Below are positions 57,792 through 64,000 of a DNA stretch of 64,000 nt, piece after piece. The notes under the pieces were generated by a model. It saw only the letters and a list, made by a program, of their open reading frames with translations. It made no database searches and was not told the DNA's origin. Origin of the DNA: Acidobacteriaceae bacterium. GTDB lineage: Bacteria; Acidobacteriota; Terriglobia; Bryobacterales; Bryobacteraceae. Both the position numbers and the translations under genes were made by a program. The first letter of the stretch is position 1, and each line of letters opens with the position of its first letter. The DNA lies in the NCBI GenBank assembly GCA_019233755.1, contig JAFAMD010000043.1, positions 1-64,000 of the forward strand, read 5' to 3'.

Positions 57792-58676
57792 CTATTTCGT
57801 GAAAGCCCCGCGGATTAAAAGCGCGATTTTGGCAGGTTTCGAGACGCGGATGTGCCGGCTGAGCACGGCATAGTTCGCGTTCTCGACTTTCCCTAGCAGC
57901 CTCTGATAGATCGCTCTTAATGCCCACAAAGAACGGCGGCTCTTCGGCTCGATCAAGTCCATCAACGGAGCCGATTCGTCATAGTAAGCCCGCGCGCGGC
58001 CGGCCTCAAAGCGCATCAACGCGCGGAATTTGTCGTCTTCCTTGCCCGACCGCAGTTGCTCGGGAGGTACACCAAAGCGCTCGAGATCTTCGAGCGGCAG
58101 ATAGATGCGGCCCATGCCGGCATCCTCGCGGACATCGCGCAGGATGTTTGTTAGCTGGAAGGCGATGCCGCATTTTTCCGCGAGCAGCAGCGCACGCGGG
58201 GAGCGGAAACGGAAGATATGAATGATGGTCAGGCCGACAACCGAGGCAACGTGGTAGCAGTAGCGGTACAGCTCATCGAACGTTCGTACTTCACGGGGCT
58301 CGACATCTGAAAGGATGCCGTCGATCATTTCGTGAAAGTAGCGGTGCGGAATGGAGTAGCGTTGAACCGTATCGAAGAACGCCGGCCAGATCGGATGTCC
58401 CTCTGTCCTGCCCTGCAGTGCGTGATCGAGAGCGATGCGCCAGAGTGTGATGCTCTGCTGAAGGGCCGCCTTGTCCGTGGTCGCAGGATCGTCACTCAGA
58501 TCGTCACACTCGCGCATGAACGCGTAAATGGCGCACATGGCATCGCGCTGCGGCTTTTCAAGAAGCAGAAAGGAGTAATAGAAGTTCTTCGCGCGGGCCT
58601 TCGCGATCTTCCGGCAGTATTGGTACGATTCTTCGATCGCCTGGGGGGTTAGAACGGCAACAGTCGCGGAAGACAT
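57792..58676 (-). CDS. hpnD: Presqualene diphosphate synthase HpnD
   Basis: This 294-residue squalene/phytoene synthase-fold protein joins two farnesyl diphosphates to presqualene diphosphate. The Asp-rich motifs are DDLSDD (about residue 57) and QLTNILRDVREDAGMGRIYLP (about 175-195). In the HpnCDE route HpnC then forms hydroxysqualene and HpnE reduces it to squalene. It overlaps hpnC by 28 nt and ends the hopanoid run. It could also be a phytoene/squalene synthase in isolation; the neighbours decide for HpnD. Confidence 0.9.
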   Translation of the reverse strand: MSSATVAVLTPQAIEESYQYCRKIAKARAKNFYYSFLLLEKPQRDAMCAIYAFMRECDDLSDDPATTDKAALQQSITLWRIALDHALQGRTEGHPIWPAFFDTVQRYSIPHRYFHEMIDGILSDVEPREVRTFDELYRYCYHVASVVGLTIIHIFRFRSPRALLLAEKCGIAFQLTNILRDVREDAGMGRIYLPLEDLERFGVPPEQLRSGKEDDKFRALMRFEAGRARAYYDESAPLMDLIEPKSRRSLWALRAIYQRLLGKVENANYAVLSRHIRVSKPAKIALLIRGAFTK

Positions 58677-59563
58677 TGAATGAGAATTCCTACTCGCTCC
58701 GCTTTCGAGATATGCGGACGCCGCGCAAGTACATTGTAGTTCTGCAGACGGATTTTCTTGAGGATTTGCATGCCTCCGCGGCTAAAGAGATCGAGGTCAA
58801 GGGAAAGCCGGCGGTTCACCATTTTGACAAGCGGCAACCCCTTCTGAAAGAGGTCTTCGGCTACGCCTACTGCCTCGACCATCAGACTCTGGAACTGCGG
58901 GTTGAACTCATGCGCGAATAGCTGTTCCACCGTGTAACCGTGCTTCTCAAGCAGGTTGAGAGGCAGATAGACGCGATCCTTCTGCAAGTCGACGGTCACA
59001 TCCTGCCAGAAATTGGCAAGTTGCAGAGCGGTGCAGGTGAAATCAGAGAGGCGCTGCCGTTCGGCGTCGCGATAGCCGCAGAGATAGAGCACCAGGTGGC
59101 CCACCGGATTGGCGGAGTTGACGCAATAGCCAAAGACGTCATCGAAGGTCCGGTAGCGTGTCACGGTCTGGTCCTGCTCGAACGCGCGAATGAGACGATC
59201 GAACGGTTCGATTGGAATCGCGTGCCGCTGAACGGTGCCTTTCAGGGCAACGAATACCGGATGCGAAGCCTGGCCGTGGTACATAGCTTCCAGTTCTGAG
59301 CGCCACCAGGCGAGCAGACGCAGACTTTCGCGCGGGTCGCCGATTTCATCGCCCAGATCATCGGCCCAGCGGCAGAATGCGTAAACGTTGTAGAAATCCT
59401 GGTGCAGTTCTTTCGGCAGCAGGAAACTGACGACCTGAAAATTCTCGTAATGGTGCGTGGCCAGCCAGCGCGTGTATTCGAGAGCTTCTTCCCGGGAATA
59501 GGCCGTGCTGTCCGGCACAACGGTTTCCAGGTAGTCTTTAGGCTGTAGATGCGCAACTGGCAC
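58649..59563 (-). CDS. hpnC: Hydroxysqualene synthase HpnC
   Basis: The 304-residue HpnC converts presqualene diphosphate to hydroxysqualene. Its N-terminus (TRWLATHHYENFQVVSFLLP) and the Asp motifs RWADDLGDEIGDP and ALQLANFWQDVTVDLQKDRVYLP match the HpnC branch. It is one of three steps from farnesyl diphosphate to squalene; the last enzyme, HpnE, was not found in the window. hpnD follows with a 28-nt overlap; the dehydrogenase upstream is 26 nt away. Confidence 0.9.
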   Translation of the reverse strand: MPVAHLQPKDYLETVVPDSTAYSREEALEYTRWLATHHYENFQVVSFLLPKELHQDFYNVYAFCRWADDLGDEIGDPRESLRLLAWWRSELEAMYHGQASHPVFVALKGTVQRHAIPIEPFDRLIRAFEQDQTVTRYRTFDDVFGYCVNSANPVGHLVLYLCGYRDAERQRLSDFTCTALQLANFWQDVTVDLQKDRVYLPLNLLEKHGYTVEQLFAHEFNPQFQSLMVEAVGVAEDLFQKGLPLVKMVNRRLSLDLDLFSRGGMQILKKIRLQNYNVLARRPHISKAERVGILIQCLPRLLPF

Positions 59564-59589: not shown

Positions 59590-60660
59590 TTAGGGAATTA
59601 TCGCGGTCTTGATCTGTCCGTTGCGCTTGTGAGAGAGGTCGTGCAGCACACGCGGCAGTTCGCTGAGCGGTTCTTCGTGATTGACGAAGTGACCGGCCCG
59701 AACCGTGCCGTCTGCCACCAGATCGAGCGAGCGGCGAATATGCTCCGGGGTGTGGTGAAAACTCGCCTTGCAGGTGATTTCAGAGTAGTGCAGCAGCGCC
59801 GTGTCGAGCGCGACCTTCGTTCCGCTGGCGCACCCGCCGAAAAAGTTGATGACGCCGCCTTTGCGAACCAGCCGCGTAGAAAGCTCCCATGCTTCGGGAA
59901 CCCCGACGGCTTCAATCACCACGTCGGCGCCGCGCCCGTCTGTGCGCGCTTTCATTTCCGAGATCACTGCCGCGTCGGTGTTCAGCGCGACCTTCCCGCT
60001 CAGCAGAATGCCTTCGCTTGCACCCAGGAGCAAAGCCTGATCGATCTGTTCGAGCCTTCGCGCGAGAGCCAGCACCCGCGCGCCATAAGCATAGCGGGCG
60101 AGCCGGACAAACATGAGACCGATGGGTCCGAGACCGAGCACCGCAACCGTGTCACCGGGCCCGACACCGCTTTCGTCAAGCCCCCGTAGTGCACACGCGA
60201 GCGGCTCCACCAGCGCAGCGTCTTTGTAATCTACGTCGTCTGGAATAACGTACGTGTTCTTCCGAACGATGCGCTCCGGAAGGCGAATGTATTCGGCGTA
60301 GGCGCCGTTATTGAAGAGCAGATTTTCGCATAAATTCTGCTGGCCGCGCCGGCAATAGAAACATTCGTCGCAAGGGGCCGAGTTGGCGGCCACCACGCGC
60401 TGGCCAACCGCAAACTTGCTTACACCCTCGCCCGACGCGACAACGTCGCCGGCCAGTTCATGACCGAAAAGCGCGGGCGGGCGGATCATCTTGGCATGAT
60501 AGCCGCGCCGGAAGACCTTCAGGTCTGTACCGCAAGTGAGCGCGGTGCGTACGCGCACCAGCAATTCGCCCGCACCAATGGCGGGCACAGGCACCGTTTC
60601 GAGCCGTACATCCTCTTTCCCATATAGAACGACGGCCTGCATAGTGGAGGGCGGTGCCAT
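59590..60660 (-). CDS. Zinc-dependent MDR alcohol dehydrogenase (hopanoid cluster) 1
   Basis: The 356-residue medium-chain dehydrogenase has the catalytic zinc Cys in RTALTCGTDLKVF, GHELAGDVVASGEGV, a structural zinc Cys set in PCDECFYCRRGQQNLC and the NAD(P) motif VAVLGLGPIGLM. It is a complete enzyme with all expected ligands. It shares a TAATG junction with the second dehydrogenase and sits between hpnG and hpnC, so it probably acts on a hopanoid or its side chain. The sequence alone cannot give the substrate. Confidence 0.88.
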   Translation of the reverse strand: MAPPSTMQAVVLYGKEDVRLETVPVPAIGAGELLVRVRTALTCGTDLKVFRRGYHAKMIRPPALFGHELAGDVVASGEGVSKFAVGQRVVAANSAPCDECFYCRRGQQNLCENLLFNNGAYAEYIRLPERIVRKNTYVIPDDVDYKDAALVEPLACALRGLDESGVGPGDTVAVLGLGPIGLMFVRLARYAYGARVLALARRLEQIDQALLLGASEGILLSGKVALNTDAAVISEMKARTDGRGADVVIEAVGVPEAWELSTRLVRKGGVINFFGGCASGTKVALDTALLHYSEITCKASFHHTPEHIRRSLDLVADGTVRAGHFVNHEEPLSELPRVLHDLSHKRNGQIKTAIIP

Positions 60661-61778
60661 TAGCTGTGCTCCTGTGGGTGAACGACTACCTTGAGCGATC
60701 GCTCGCCCGGCCGCTGCGCGATGGCAATGCCGCGGGTGATATCGCCGAGCGACACCCGGTCTGAGATAAGTTCTTCGAGCGGCAGCTCGCCGCTGAATAC
60801 GACACGCGCAGATTCGGACTGCAGATCTACATCCGCGCTGTAGGAACCGAAGAGCATGCGCTCGCCGACGCAGACATCGGCACCGGAAAATTCAATCCGT
60901 TCGGTTGCCGAGGTCTGGGCGAACAGCAGAATTTTCGCTCCCGGGCGCGAAATGCGCAGCGCCTGTTCCACCAGCCCCTTCGCGCTGGTAGCAAGAATGA
61001 CGGCATCGGCGCCGCGCCCATCCGTCGCGGTTTTCACAGACTCTTCGAACTCTGTCAAGCGGGGATCGAATGCCGCCGCGCCAAAGCGTTCGGACAGGTT
61101 CCGGCGAAACTCAATCGTGTCGGTTGCCAGAACAGCGGCCCCTGCGCGCTTCACCAACATGGTGAAAATGAGGCCGATGGGGCCCTGCCCCAGAACAGCC
61201 ACTACGTCACCGCGCTGAGGCGCGAGCAATTCGACGCCTTTCAAGATGGTGTTGACGGGCTCGACCCAGCAGGCCTGGTCGAAAGAGATGCCGTCGGGAA
61301 TCTTCTCCACCCCGCGCTCCACAATCCAGTCCATGGCGCGTACGTATTGAGAGAAGCCACCCCCCGCGGGCTCAAACGCGGAGGTGACACCGACTCTCTT
61401 ATACACCGGGCATTGCGCGTACAACCGCCGGCGGCAATAGAAGCAGTCCCCGCACGGAATGTGATGGAAAACGATCACCCGCTCTCCGGGTTGATACTTG
61501 CTGACGCCTGCGCCCACAGCCGCTACTACACCCGCGGTTTCATGCCCGTAAATGCGCGGCCCCGGAAGCAGATTGTACTCAATCTTCTTCAGATCGGTGT
61601 GGCAGATGCCGCAACTCTCCACACGAATCAGGATCTCGCCGCGGCCAATGCGGGGAGTCGGGACGGATTCCACCGAGATGCGGCTTTCGCCGGTATACAC
61701 GGCGGCCCGCATGGTTTCAGGAATCGGCTGTTCCAGGCTCATTGATCTTAGATACTGTACTGATTCGGCAACTGACAA
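60660..61778 (-). CDS. Zinc-dependent MDR alcohol dehydrogenase (hopanoid cluster) 2
   Basis: A 372-residue dehydrogenase of the same superfamily: catalytic zinc site ESCGICHTDLKKIEYNLLPGPRIYGHETAG, structural zinc site PCGDCFYCRRRLYAQC and coenzyme motif VAVLGQGPIGLIFTM. The start overlaps the hpnG stop by 62 nt; a GGGGGAG site precedes TTG 61778, but the ATG at 61712 (MRAAVYTGE) would give the normal family N-terminus. It is related to, but clearly distinct from, the first dehydrogenase, so the two may form a heteromer or do successive steps. Confidence 0.88.
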   Translation of the reverse strand: MSVAESVQYLRSMSLEQPIPETMRAAVYTGESRISVESVPTPRIGRGEILIRVESCGICHTDLKKIEYNLLPGPRIYGHETAGVVAAVGAGVSKYQPGERVIVFHHIPCGDCFYCRRRLYAQCPVYKRVGVTSAFEPAGGGFSQYVRAMDWIVERGVEKIPDGISFDQACWVEPVNTILKGVELLAPQRGDVVAVLGQGPIGLIFTMLVKRAGAAVLATDTIEFRRNLSERFGAAAFDPRLTEFEESVKTATDGRGADAVILATSAKGLVEQALRISRPGAKILLFAQTSATERIEFSGADVCVGERMLFGSYSADVDLQSESARVVFSGELPLEELISDRVSLGDITRGIAIAQRPGERSLKVVVHPQEHS

Positions 61779-62481
61779 GAAACTCCCCCAAAGCTTTTGC
61801 GGCGTCCGCCGTGCGGCTCTTCAACCGGAACAGAGCCGGTACGATGTTCGGATGCGTAAGGGCGTGCACCACAATTTTCCCACGGGCGATACGGCCCTCA
61901 GGCGTCCGCATAGCGTTCAGGTCGAACGGAAACGATTCGTCGGCGCGGTCTGATACTACTTTGATGCAGGCAAACGGCAGGCCGGCACGCTTTGTTCGCG
62001 CGGCCACGCCGGATGATTCCATGTCGACCGCCAGGGCCCCCGAGCCGCGAAGCTGCTCTTTGGCAGCCGCGCTGTTTGCGATTTCGTTCTGCGAAAGAAC
62101 CACTCCTGCGACAAAATCGCGGTGGGCCAGCACTTCGGCGCACTCGAGCCGCTCGTTTGTCGCGCGATCCAATACCTCGGTGCCGATCACGATTTGCGAT
62201 TCCGTCAGATCTGAGCTGAGCGCTCCGCAGTAGCCCGTACTCACCACCGCTTCCAATCGCGAGGAGGAGAGCTCCGCCACCATGCCGGCCCGGATGGCTA
62301 TTTCGACAACGTGGGCCGCCAGCTTGGGGCCCGCGCCATTGGCGGCAAGCAGCATGCGACGGCCTTCCAGGATGCCCTCATAGGCGTAATCGACCGGCCA
62401 CTTCAGTTTTCGCAAGCCGGTGAGCATTTCCGCGAAAGGCGTGAGTTCCGATGCTTCCGATGCAACGTAGAGGATCGCCAT
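61717..62481 (-). CDS. hpnG: Hopanoid-associated phosphorylase/nucleosidase HpnG
   Basis: HpnG removes adenine from adenosylhopane to give phosphoribosyl/ribosylhopane. The 254-residue protein is a purine nucleoside phosphorylase fold: VVSTGYCGALSSDLTESQIVIG, SGALAVDMESSGVAARTKRAGLPFACIKVVSDRADE, with the catalytic Asp/Glu of the MTA/SAH nucleosidase family. Its place between hpnA and two dehydrogenases supports the side-chain role. hpnH (adenosylhopane synthase) is not in the window. The start follows hpnA by 3 nt. Confidence 0.9.
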   Translation of the reverse strand: MAILYVASEASELTPFAEMLTGLRKLKWPVDYAYEGILEGRRMLLAANGAGPKLAAHVVEIAIRAGMVAELSSSRLEAVVSTGYCGALSSDLTESQIVIGTEVLDRATNERLECAEVLAHRDFVAGVVLSQNEIANSAAAKEQLRGSGALAVDMESSGVAARTKRAGLPFACIKVVSDRADESFPFDLNAMRTPEGRIARGKIVVHALTHPNIVPALFRLKSRTADAAKALGEFLVSCRISTVSKINEPGTADS

Positions 62482-62484
62482 AGG

Positions 62485-63459
62485 CTAGCAGTATCCGTTG
62501 GTACGAAACCAATCGATGGCACGCTCGAGTGCGGCGTCCACGGGTCCAGGGGCGAACCCGAGGTCGCAGGCGGCTTTGGCATGACTGGCAAACATTTTCT
62601 TCCGCGCCATTTTGACTGCTTCGAGCGGTGCAATCGGCTCCTTGCCGGTGACGTCGGCCCAGGCGGTGGTCACCACGCCGGCGGCATACGCGATCCCGTA
62701 AGGGATTTTCGTCCGCGGCGCGGGTTTTCCCGCAAGTGCTGCCATACGCGCCAGAATCTGCTCGAGTGTCAGGTTCTCGCAGCCGAGGATGTAGCGTTCC
62801 CCGGGACGGCCTTTTTCCGCTGCCAGCAGATGCCCTAGCGCCGTATCGCGCACATCGACGAGATTCAACCCGGTGTCGACAAAGGCCGGCAGCTTGTTGC
62901 GCAAGAAATCGACGATGATTTTGCCGGTGGGCGTCGGTTTCCAATCGTGATCTCCGATGGGCGCGGTCGGGTTCACGATAATCACCGGGAGCCCGGCGCG
63001 GGCTTTTTCGAGCGCGACCTGTTCTGCCAGCCACTTCGAGCGCTTATAATGGCCGGCCATGTCTTCAATGGACACTGGGGTGGTCTCTTCGCCGGGACGA
63101 TCTTTCGGGATCCCGATGCAGCCCACGGTGCTGGTGTAGACAATGCGGTCAACGCCGGCCCCGGCGGCAGCAGCGAGCAGATGCCGCGTGCCCTCGACAT
63201 TCGAGTCGTACAGGTCTTGCGGGTTCTTTGACCAGAGGCGGTAATCGGCCGCAACATGAAAAACCTGCTGGCAGCCTTCGATGGCATGGGCTAGCGAGGC
63301 GGGGTCGCGGAGATCGCCGGTGACGCGCTCCACATCGAGCTCGCGGATGTGGCTGGACGGGCGGCAAAGCGCCCGCACGTGATGACCGCGCTCAAGCAGG
63401 AGACGGGCAACGTGCCAGCCCAGAAAGCCGCTGGCGCCGGTGACAAGGATACGCGCCAA
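62485..63459 (-). CDS. hpnA: Hopanoid-associated sugar epimerase HpnA
   Basis: A 324-residue NAD-dependent epimerase/dehydratase (extended SDR): ILVTGASGFLGWHVARLLLERGH (nucleotide-binding), IVYTSTVGCIG, YKRSKWLAEQ (YxxxK) and VIIVNPTAPIGDHDWKPTPTG. HpnA is regularly encoded in hopanoid clusters; its substrate is not firmly established. It is 6 nt after the squalene-hopene cyclase gene and 3 nt before hpnG. Confidence 0.92.
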   Translation of the reverse strand: MARILVTGASGFLGWHVARLLLERGHHVRALCRPSSHIRELDVERVTGDLRDPASLAHAIEGCQQVFHVAADYRLWSKNPQDLYDSNVEGTRHLLAAAAGAGVDRIVYTSTVGCIGIPKDRPGEETTPVSIEDMAGHYKRSKWLAEQVALEKARAGLPVIIVNPTAPIGDHDWKPTPTGKIIVDFLRNKLPAFVDTGLNLVDVRDTALGHLLAAEKGRPGERYILGCENLTLEQILARMAALAGKPAPRTKIPYGIAYAAGVVTTAWADVTGKEPIAPLEAVKMARKKMFASHAKAACDLGFAPGPVDAALERAIDWFRTNGYC

Positions 63460-63465
63460 TGCGCC

Positions 63466-64000
63466 TCAGAATGCGCCCACGCCGGTTTCCTGGCGAGCGG
63501 GAGCGGTGGCTTTCCGGTAGTTAGTTAAAGCAAGCAGCGGGAAAGTGTTGCGGTAGTCGGTATAAGCCAGATAAAAGACCCGGGGAAATCCCGTGCCGGT
63601 CGAGTAATCTTCGTCCCAGTTACCGTCCGGGCGCTGCGTGCGAACCAGGTATTCGACACCATTGTAAAGACTTTCGCTCCGGATATCCCCACCCGCCAGC
63701 AGCGCGAGGATCGCCCAAGCAGTCTGCGATGGCGTACTCGGGTTCGAGATGAAGCGATTATCGTCGTAGCTGGCGCAGCTTTCGCCCCAACCGCCATCGC
63801 GATTCTGATAAGCGCGAATGAATTCGAGAGCCTGCTGGATGCTCGGCTCATTTTCGCTCACCCCGGCGGCGCGCAAGCCGCGCAAAGCGAGGAACGTGCC
63901 GTAAATGTAATTGACACCCCAGCGGCCGTACCAGCTACCATCAGCTTCCTGGGTTCGCAGAAGATACTCCACCCCTCGCTTGATAACCGGATGATTCTGC
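63466..64000 (-). CDS. shc: Squalene-hopene cyclase, C-terminal part (cut by window edge)
   Basis: The open frame runs from the window end to the stop at 63466, 177 codons. It shows the last part of the cyclase: QEADGSWYGRWGVNYIYGTFLALRGL, AYQNRDGGWGESCASYDD (a QW motif), NPSTPSQTAWAILALLAGG, RTQRPDGNWDEDYSTGTGFPRVFYLAYTDYRNTFPLLAL. The catalytic DxDD part lies beyond the window. It makes hopene from squalene; the upstream continuation should carry further hopanoid genes. The ORF-track start at 63972 is an internal GTG, not the true start. Confidence 0.95.
   Translation of the reverse strand, partial: QNHPVIKRGVEYLLRTQEADGSWYGRWGVNYIYGTFLALRGLRAAGVSENEPSIQQALEFIRAYQNRDGGWGESCASYDDNRFISNPSTPSQTAWAILALLAGGDIRSESLYNGVEYLVRTQRPDGNWDEDYSTGTGFPRVFYLAYTDYRNTFPLLALTNYRKATAPARQETGVGAF

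Follow-up and report, generated by a model that had tools for sequence, protein, structure and literature searches.

The hopanoid gene clusters of Acidobacteria were described by Sinninghe Damste et al. in 2017 (PMC5462960), and the text of that survey gives a cluster C with the order hpnA-hpnG-ug1 and a cluster A with the order ug2-hpnC-hpnD-hpnE. There, ug2 is described as a Zn alcohol dehydrogenase some 350 amino acids long, found in subdivisions 1 and 3 and linked to squalene synthesis, the family of ug1 is not named, and the function of both genes is left open. The same text proposes hpnA for the formation of bacteriohopanetetrol (BHT) from ribosylhopane, a step whose enzyme was still unassigned as of 2025 (PMC12583986), in agreement with the initial annotation of the locus studied here, which knew of no firmly established enzyme for it. 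Derivatives of BHT rank among the major membrane lipids of bacteria and persist for long as molecular fossils.

Several described enzymes share their fold and zinc sites with the two zinc-dependent medium-chain dehydrogenases (MDR1 and MDR2) of this locus. The best-scoring characterised NCBIfam models include scyllo-inosose 3-dehydrogenase (IolM, NF041097) and L-threonine 3-dehydrogenase (TIGR00692); the two proteins score 166.8 and 143.5 bits against the former (cut-off 450) and 148.0 and 127.6 bits against the latter (cut-off 458), and are members of neither. The NADP(H)-dependent ketose reductase (PDB 1e3j) and the sorbitol and xylitol dehydrogenases have the fold (TM 0.79-0.89) and zinc ligands in common with the pair, and with MDR2 also an arginine-containing NADP-type loop, but these enzymes are 22-28% identical to the pair and act on free sugars, not on a lipid-bound chain. 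The closest solved chain to both MDR1 and MDR2 is a putative zinc-binding dehydrogenase from Sinorhizobium meliloti (PDB 4ej6/4ejm, 27-33% identity), which was deposited without an assigned function.

The hopanoid operon and its two dehydrogenases

The window (the whole stretch of 64,000 nucleotides that was analysed) carries at its right end, on the minus strand, the genes shc-hpnA-hpnG-MDR1-MDR2-hpnC-hpnD, with shc running off the end. Two tandem zinc dehydrogenases in a hopanoid operon, tightly coupled and placed between side-chain and squalene-forming genes, had been reported in the initial annotation, and closer inspection bore out this layout. MDR1 (60660..61778, TTG start, 372 amino acids, predicted NAD(H) type) and MDR2 (59590..60660, ATG start, 356 amino acids, predicted NADP(H) type) are ORFs at exactly these positions. 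They meet in a TAATG junction (...CAGCTAATGGCACC...), where one base is common to the TAA stop and the ATG start, and the start of MDR1 at 61778 overlaps the end of hpnG at 61717 by 62 nt. A ribosome-binding-like motif (GGGGGAG) lies 5' of the TTG start; with an alternative ATG start at 61742 the overlap would shrink to 26 nt.

Upstream on the same strand are hpnG (61717..62481), adenosylhopane phosphorylase/nucleosidase-like, for which TIGR03468 is the best of all models (123.7 bits; the cut-off of 187.1 bits is reached by no HpnG in 198 acidobacterial genomes), hpnA (62485..63459), a hopanoid-associated SDR "sugar epimerase" (TIGR03466, 467.6 bits, cut-off 367.65), and the C-terminal part of the squalene-hopene cyclase gene shc (63466..63999; TIGR01507, 230.8 bits for the fragment). 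Downstream, also on the minus strand, are hpnC (58649..59563), the hydroxysqualene-forming synthase (TIGR03464, 339.2 bits, cut-off 250.45), and hpnD (57792..58676), the presqualene diphosphate synthase, for which TIGR03465 is the best model at 256.0 bits, below its cut-off of 278.6. The entire shc gene (649 amino acids) extends past the window on the contig, where the full operon reads ispH-shc-hpnA-hpnG-MDR1-MDR2-hpnC-hpnD with ispH as its first gene; the complete ORF and ispH were seen in L048. hpnH is found about 3.5 kb past the window end on the opposite strand. Loss of hpnE as a reason for the MDR genes was ruled out, as a full-score HpnE (475 bits) is encoded on a separate contig of the same genome.

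In the window and in its relatives, MDR1 occupies the position of ug1, directly after hpnG, and MDR2 that of ug2, directly before hpnC, a match made by position and by the description in the survey text (PMC5462960). The association of the two genes with hopanoid genes is mostly published there; new beyond that text are the tandem origin of the pair, its link to HpnI, a family (f28) with the pair and no hpnG, the cofactor types and the sharp group of MDR1 orthologues. Judged by MDR1, the nearest named relatives among the best 80 matches are Bryobacterales (subdivision 3, 62-75% identity), and chance is excluded as an explanation of the arrangement, given its recurrence among 80 related records.

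Zinc sites and predicted cofactors

The Pfam domains ADH_N (PF08240) and ADH_zinc_N (PF00107) were recognised in both proteins, with scores far over the gathering thresholds. In MDR1, the catalytic-type ligands (C56, H79, E80 and E173) and the structural ligands (C109, C112, C115 and C123) are invariant in 15 orthologues, as are those of MDR2 (C43, H67, E68 and E152, with C97, C100, C103 and C111) in 14-15 diverse orthologues, and nearly all zinc ligands are kept in a set of distant homologues (A6). The Rossmann GxGxxG motif is present as GQGPIG in MDR1 and as GLGPIG in MDR2. Both enzymes are thus complete, as had been stated initially; the accompanying suggestion that one member is a regulator fails, and a dead enzyme is likewise ruled out, since all catalytic ligands are intact in both.

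In MDR enzymes, NAD(H) use goes with an acidic residue where beta-2 ends, and NADP(H) use with a basic residue and no acid. MDR1 orthologues have Asp or Glu at this position; in MDR2 orthologues the acid is absent and Lys, Arg or His stands nearby. This suggests that MDR1 is of the NAD(H) type and MDR2 of the NADP(H) type. The AlphaFold models (pLDDT 92.3 for MDR1 and 92.0 for MDR2) matched MDR structures in Foldseek with a probability of 1.00, including polyol, butanediol and threonine dehydrogenases, and ketose reductase and sorbitol and xylitol dehydrogenases are among the nearest solved structures. Judged from sequence and modelled fold, MDR1 and MDR2 look like active polyol-type dehydrogenases. 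Their substrate cannot be read from homology because neither protein reached the cut-off of any characterised NCBIfam model.

Distribution across acidobacterial genomes

MDR1 orthologues were detected in 31 of the 198 acidobacterial genomes surveyed (E <= 7e-100) and form a sharp group, the next match reaching only 4e-62. hpnH is present in 51 genomes, and MDR1 was found in 30 of these versus 1 of the 147 genomes without hpnH; the sole exception, G107, has shc and hpnA. A location mainly away from hopanoid genes, which the initial annotation had named as evidence against its proposal, was not what we found: 30 of the 31 MDR1 orthologues adjoin hpnA or hpnA-hpnG, and only in G064 is the MDR pair on another contig. 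Hardly any MDR1 or MDR2 orthologues occur outside hopanoid producers and hopanoid operons. The tie of the pair to hpnG itself is loose: f28 has the pair and lacks this gene, and in many genomes with hpnG there is no MDR pair in the operon.

Among the Bryobacterales-type records (the best 80 matches of one genome scan, all acidobacterial by content), hpnG was recognised directly upstream of MDR1 in 69. MDR2 is the next gene downstream in every record whose contig extends that far; in L202, L239 and L254 it was found by tblastn (60-62% identity). The contig of G007 ends shortly after ug3, before the MDR1 site, and is uninformative on the absence of MDR1. The acidobacterial hopanoid operon is also present in two records titled Bordetella parapertussis and Acidimicrobiia (L213 and L261), which probably are MAGs under a wrong label.

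Most f2 genomes have the two genes apart, MDR1 remaining with hpnA-hpnG and MDR2 heading hpnC-hpnD-hpnE. MDR2 stands directly before hpnC in most clusters, even where it is separated from MDR1, and this position would fit a part in squalene synthesis in place of the side chain, which is how ug2 is read in the 2017 survey (PMC5462960). We consider such a part highly improbable, since squalene formation by HpnC, HpnD and HpnE is biochemically complete without an MDR enzyme (Pan et al. 2015, as cited in PMC5462960), the strong HpnE (475 bits) is encoded elsewhere in the genome, and squalene synthesis has no evident step for a carbonyl-type zinc dehydrogenase.

Association with HpnI and proposed function

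Among genomes with hpnH, MDR1 was identified in 30 of the 37 with HpnI versus none of the 14 without it, and close MDR2 homologues in 35 of 37 versus 0 of 14. HpnI is the enzyme that glycosylates BHT, its substrate. At the family level, MDR1 is present in 5 of 7 versus 0 of 6 families (P = 0.021) and MDR2 in 6 of 7 versus 0 of 6 (P = 0.005), with the HpnI proxy and thresholds picked after the data were seen and the families not fully independent; the test falls to P = 0.10 when pairs of any type are counted. The same pattern of MDR1 and HpnI could arise by vertical inheritance of two pathway versions. Directly observed are the gene content, the operon-like arrangement, the intact motifs for catalysis and cofactor, their conservation and the co-occurrence with HpnI.

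The initial annotation had proposed the pair for the reduction of ribosylhopane, which is plausible and partly supported, with HpnI giving better support than hpnG. Near-confinement to the operon and the tracking of HpnI speak for this proposal; the loose tie to hpnG, the relatives of the pair in five genomes that have neither shc nor hpnH and the lack of the pair in G028 speak against it.

We propose that MDR1 and MDR2 would be two active zinc-dependent polyol-type dehydrogenases; their co-transcription with the hopanoid genes, substrate, direction and cofactor are what we infer here. After HpnH attaches adenosine, the pair would carry out redox reactions on the sugar-derived C35 side chain, and its likeliest job would be to reduce the C-1' aldehyde of ring-opened ribosylhopane to BHT, which HpnI would then glycosylate. 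MDR2 (predicted NADPH type) would be the better candidate for the reduction, and MDR1 (predicted NAD type) may act on the same polyol, for example by oxidising or epimerising one hydroxyl, or serve as an alternative reductase. Known polyol MDR enzymes act mostly on ketones and not on the aldehyde of an aldose, which counts against the reductase reading. A role of the pair in redox chemistry of the hopanoid side chain is probable. Such a role, with ribosylhopane reduction as the likeliest reaction, is the overall best explanation, and we see its chances as evenly balanced; that one member is the ribosylhopane reductase has a little under an even chance. Tentatively, and with the balance leaning against it, Terriglobia-type acidobacteria could make BHT via a dedicated two-dehydrogenase module derived from a tandem MDR pair of ancient origin. 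Of its two enzymes, one would be the ribosylhopane reductase and the other would determine the side chain's oxidation state or stereochemistry, and other hopanoid producers would use unrelated enzymes. With two ranked candidates with predicted cofactors, orthologues in cultured acidobacteria and the exceptions f28 and G028, the question is directly testable.

Origin of the tandem pair

Type-1 and type-2 relatives form two clades with mirrored branches (Mantel r 0.83, P 0.0002), and the tandem pair is therefore old. The pair lies away from hopanoid genes in f31, f46, f65 and G064. Strict MDR1 orthologues occur in only 1 of the 147 genomes without hpnH, which has shc; the wider pair family extends to five genomes that lack both shc and hpnH (G053, G075, G093, G125 and G168). 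G125 has a close MDR2 orthologue (54% identity) in a hopanoid-free genome, and MDR2 only. In f33 (L132, L133 and L148, from three hopanoid-free genomes), a tandem MDR pair is encoded between dxs and nadK (NAD kinase). Because the pair is old and also found outside hopanoid loci, its operon form seems to have been recruited, and the substrate of the ancestral pair may have been something other than a hopanoid.

The pair might instead have a general function in the phylum, such as sugar-alcohol or NAD/NADP redox housekeeping, and have been drawn into the hopanoid operon with no action on hopanoids; this would agree with a tandem pair that predates the operon association and with copies such as those of f33. 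We judge it decidedly unlikely: the operon-type clade is limited to hopanoid genomes save for the MDR2 of G125, MDR1 and MDR2 keep hopanoid neighbours even if split, and the hopanoid-free copies, mostly ~30-44% identical to the operon type, could act on other substrates.

Clusters lacking hpnG or the dehydrogenase pair

The operon of family f28 reads hpnA-MDR1-MDR2-hpnD (or hpnC-hpnD), with no space for hpnG, and hpnA-MDR1-MDR2 without hpnG was found in L115, L117, L118, L119, L121, L122, L124 and L125. We found no recognisable hpnG in f28, where the five nucleosidases scanned fit MTA/SAH nucleosidase or futalosine hydrolase at least as well as HpnG. Because f28 has HpnI, its members probably make BHT, and HpnG may be replaced by another nucleosidase. 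The f28 organisms may apply another nucleosidase to adenosylhopane or end at adenosylhopane.

G028 encodes shc-hpnH-hpnA-hpnG-hpnI-hpnJ, but its best match to the type-1 and type-2 proteins (E about 1e-36) is not a close one. Possession of the pair is thus not universal, nor does it accompany BHT throughout the phylum if hpnI and hpnJ mean that BHT is made in G028; in that case another enzyme would perform the reduction there, which does not deny the activity to the MDR enzymes of this locus. In G091 and G117 both types are present, unlinked and adjoining neither hpnG nor hpnH.

Clusters without the pair, such as G028, G087, G113 and f46, have hpnA adjoining shc-hpnH-hpnG, and hpnA is also the gene suggested for the ribosylhopane step in PMC5462960. 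HpnA, an SDR encoded beside hpnG, might then reduce ribosylhopane, and the MDR pair would alter the side chain otherwise, for example by oxidation and re-reduction of a hydroxyl to give a stereoisomer of BHT or a polyol with additional functional groups; adjacent NAD-type and NADP-type dehydrogenases would suit such an oxidise-then-reduce pair. We regard this as unlikely, since Burkholderia cenocepacia can make BHT without hpnA and some BHT producers lack the gene (evidence cited in PMC5462960), and we found no BHT stereoisomer data bearing on it. Ribosylhopane reduction by the MDR pair stays our preferred reading.

Another oxidoreductase filling the slot in clusters without the pair is no general rule, as none is there in G028, G057, G087 and G144. 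In f46 (L152:7746-8801 and L156:11295-12197), an F420-type LLM oxidoreductase (TIGR03560, over the cut-off for L156) is encoded directly after hpnG and is followed by a PLP-dependent decarboxylase-like gene. The MEP pathway in acidobacteria is described in the 2017 survey (PMC5462960). Mevalonate-pathway genes adjoin shc-hpnH clusters, namely type-2 IPP isomerase and mevalonate kinase in L150 (G057), HMG-CoA reductase in L158 (G144) and, by eye, a similar-looking ORF in L157 (G113).
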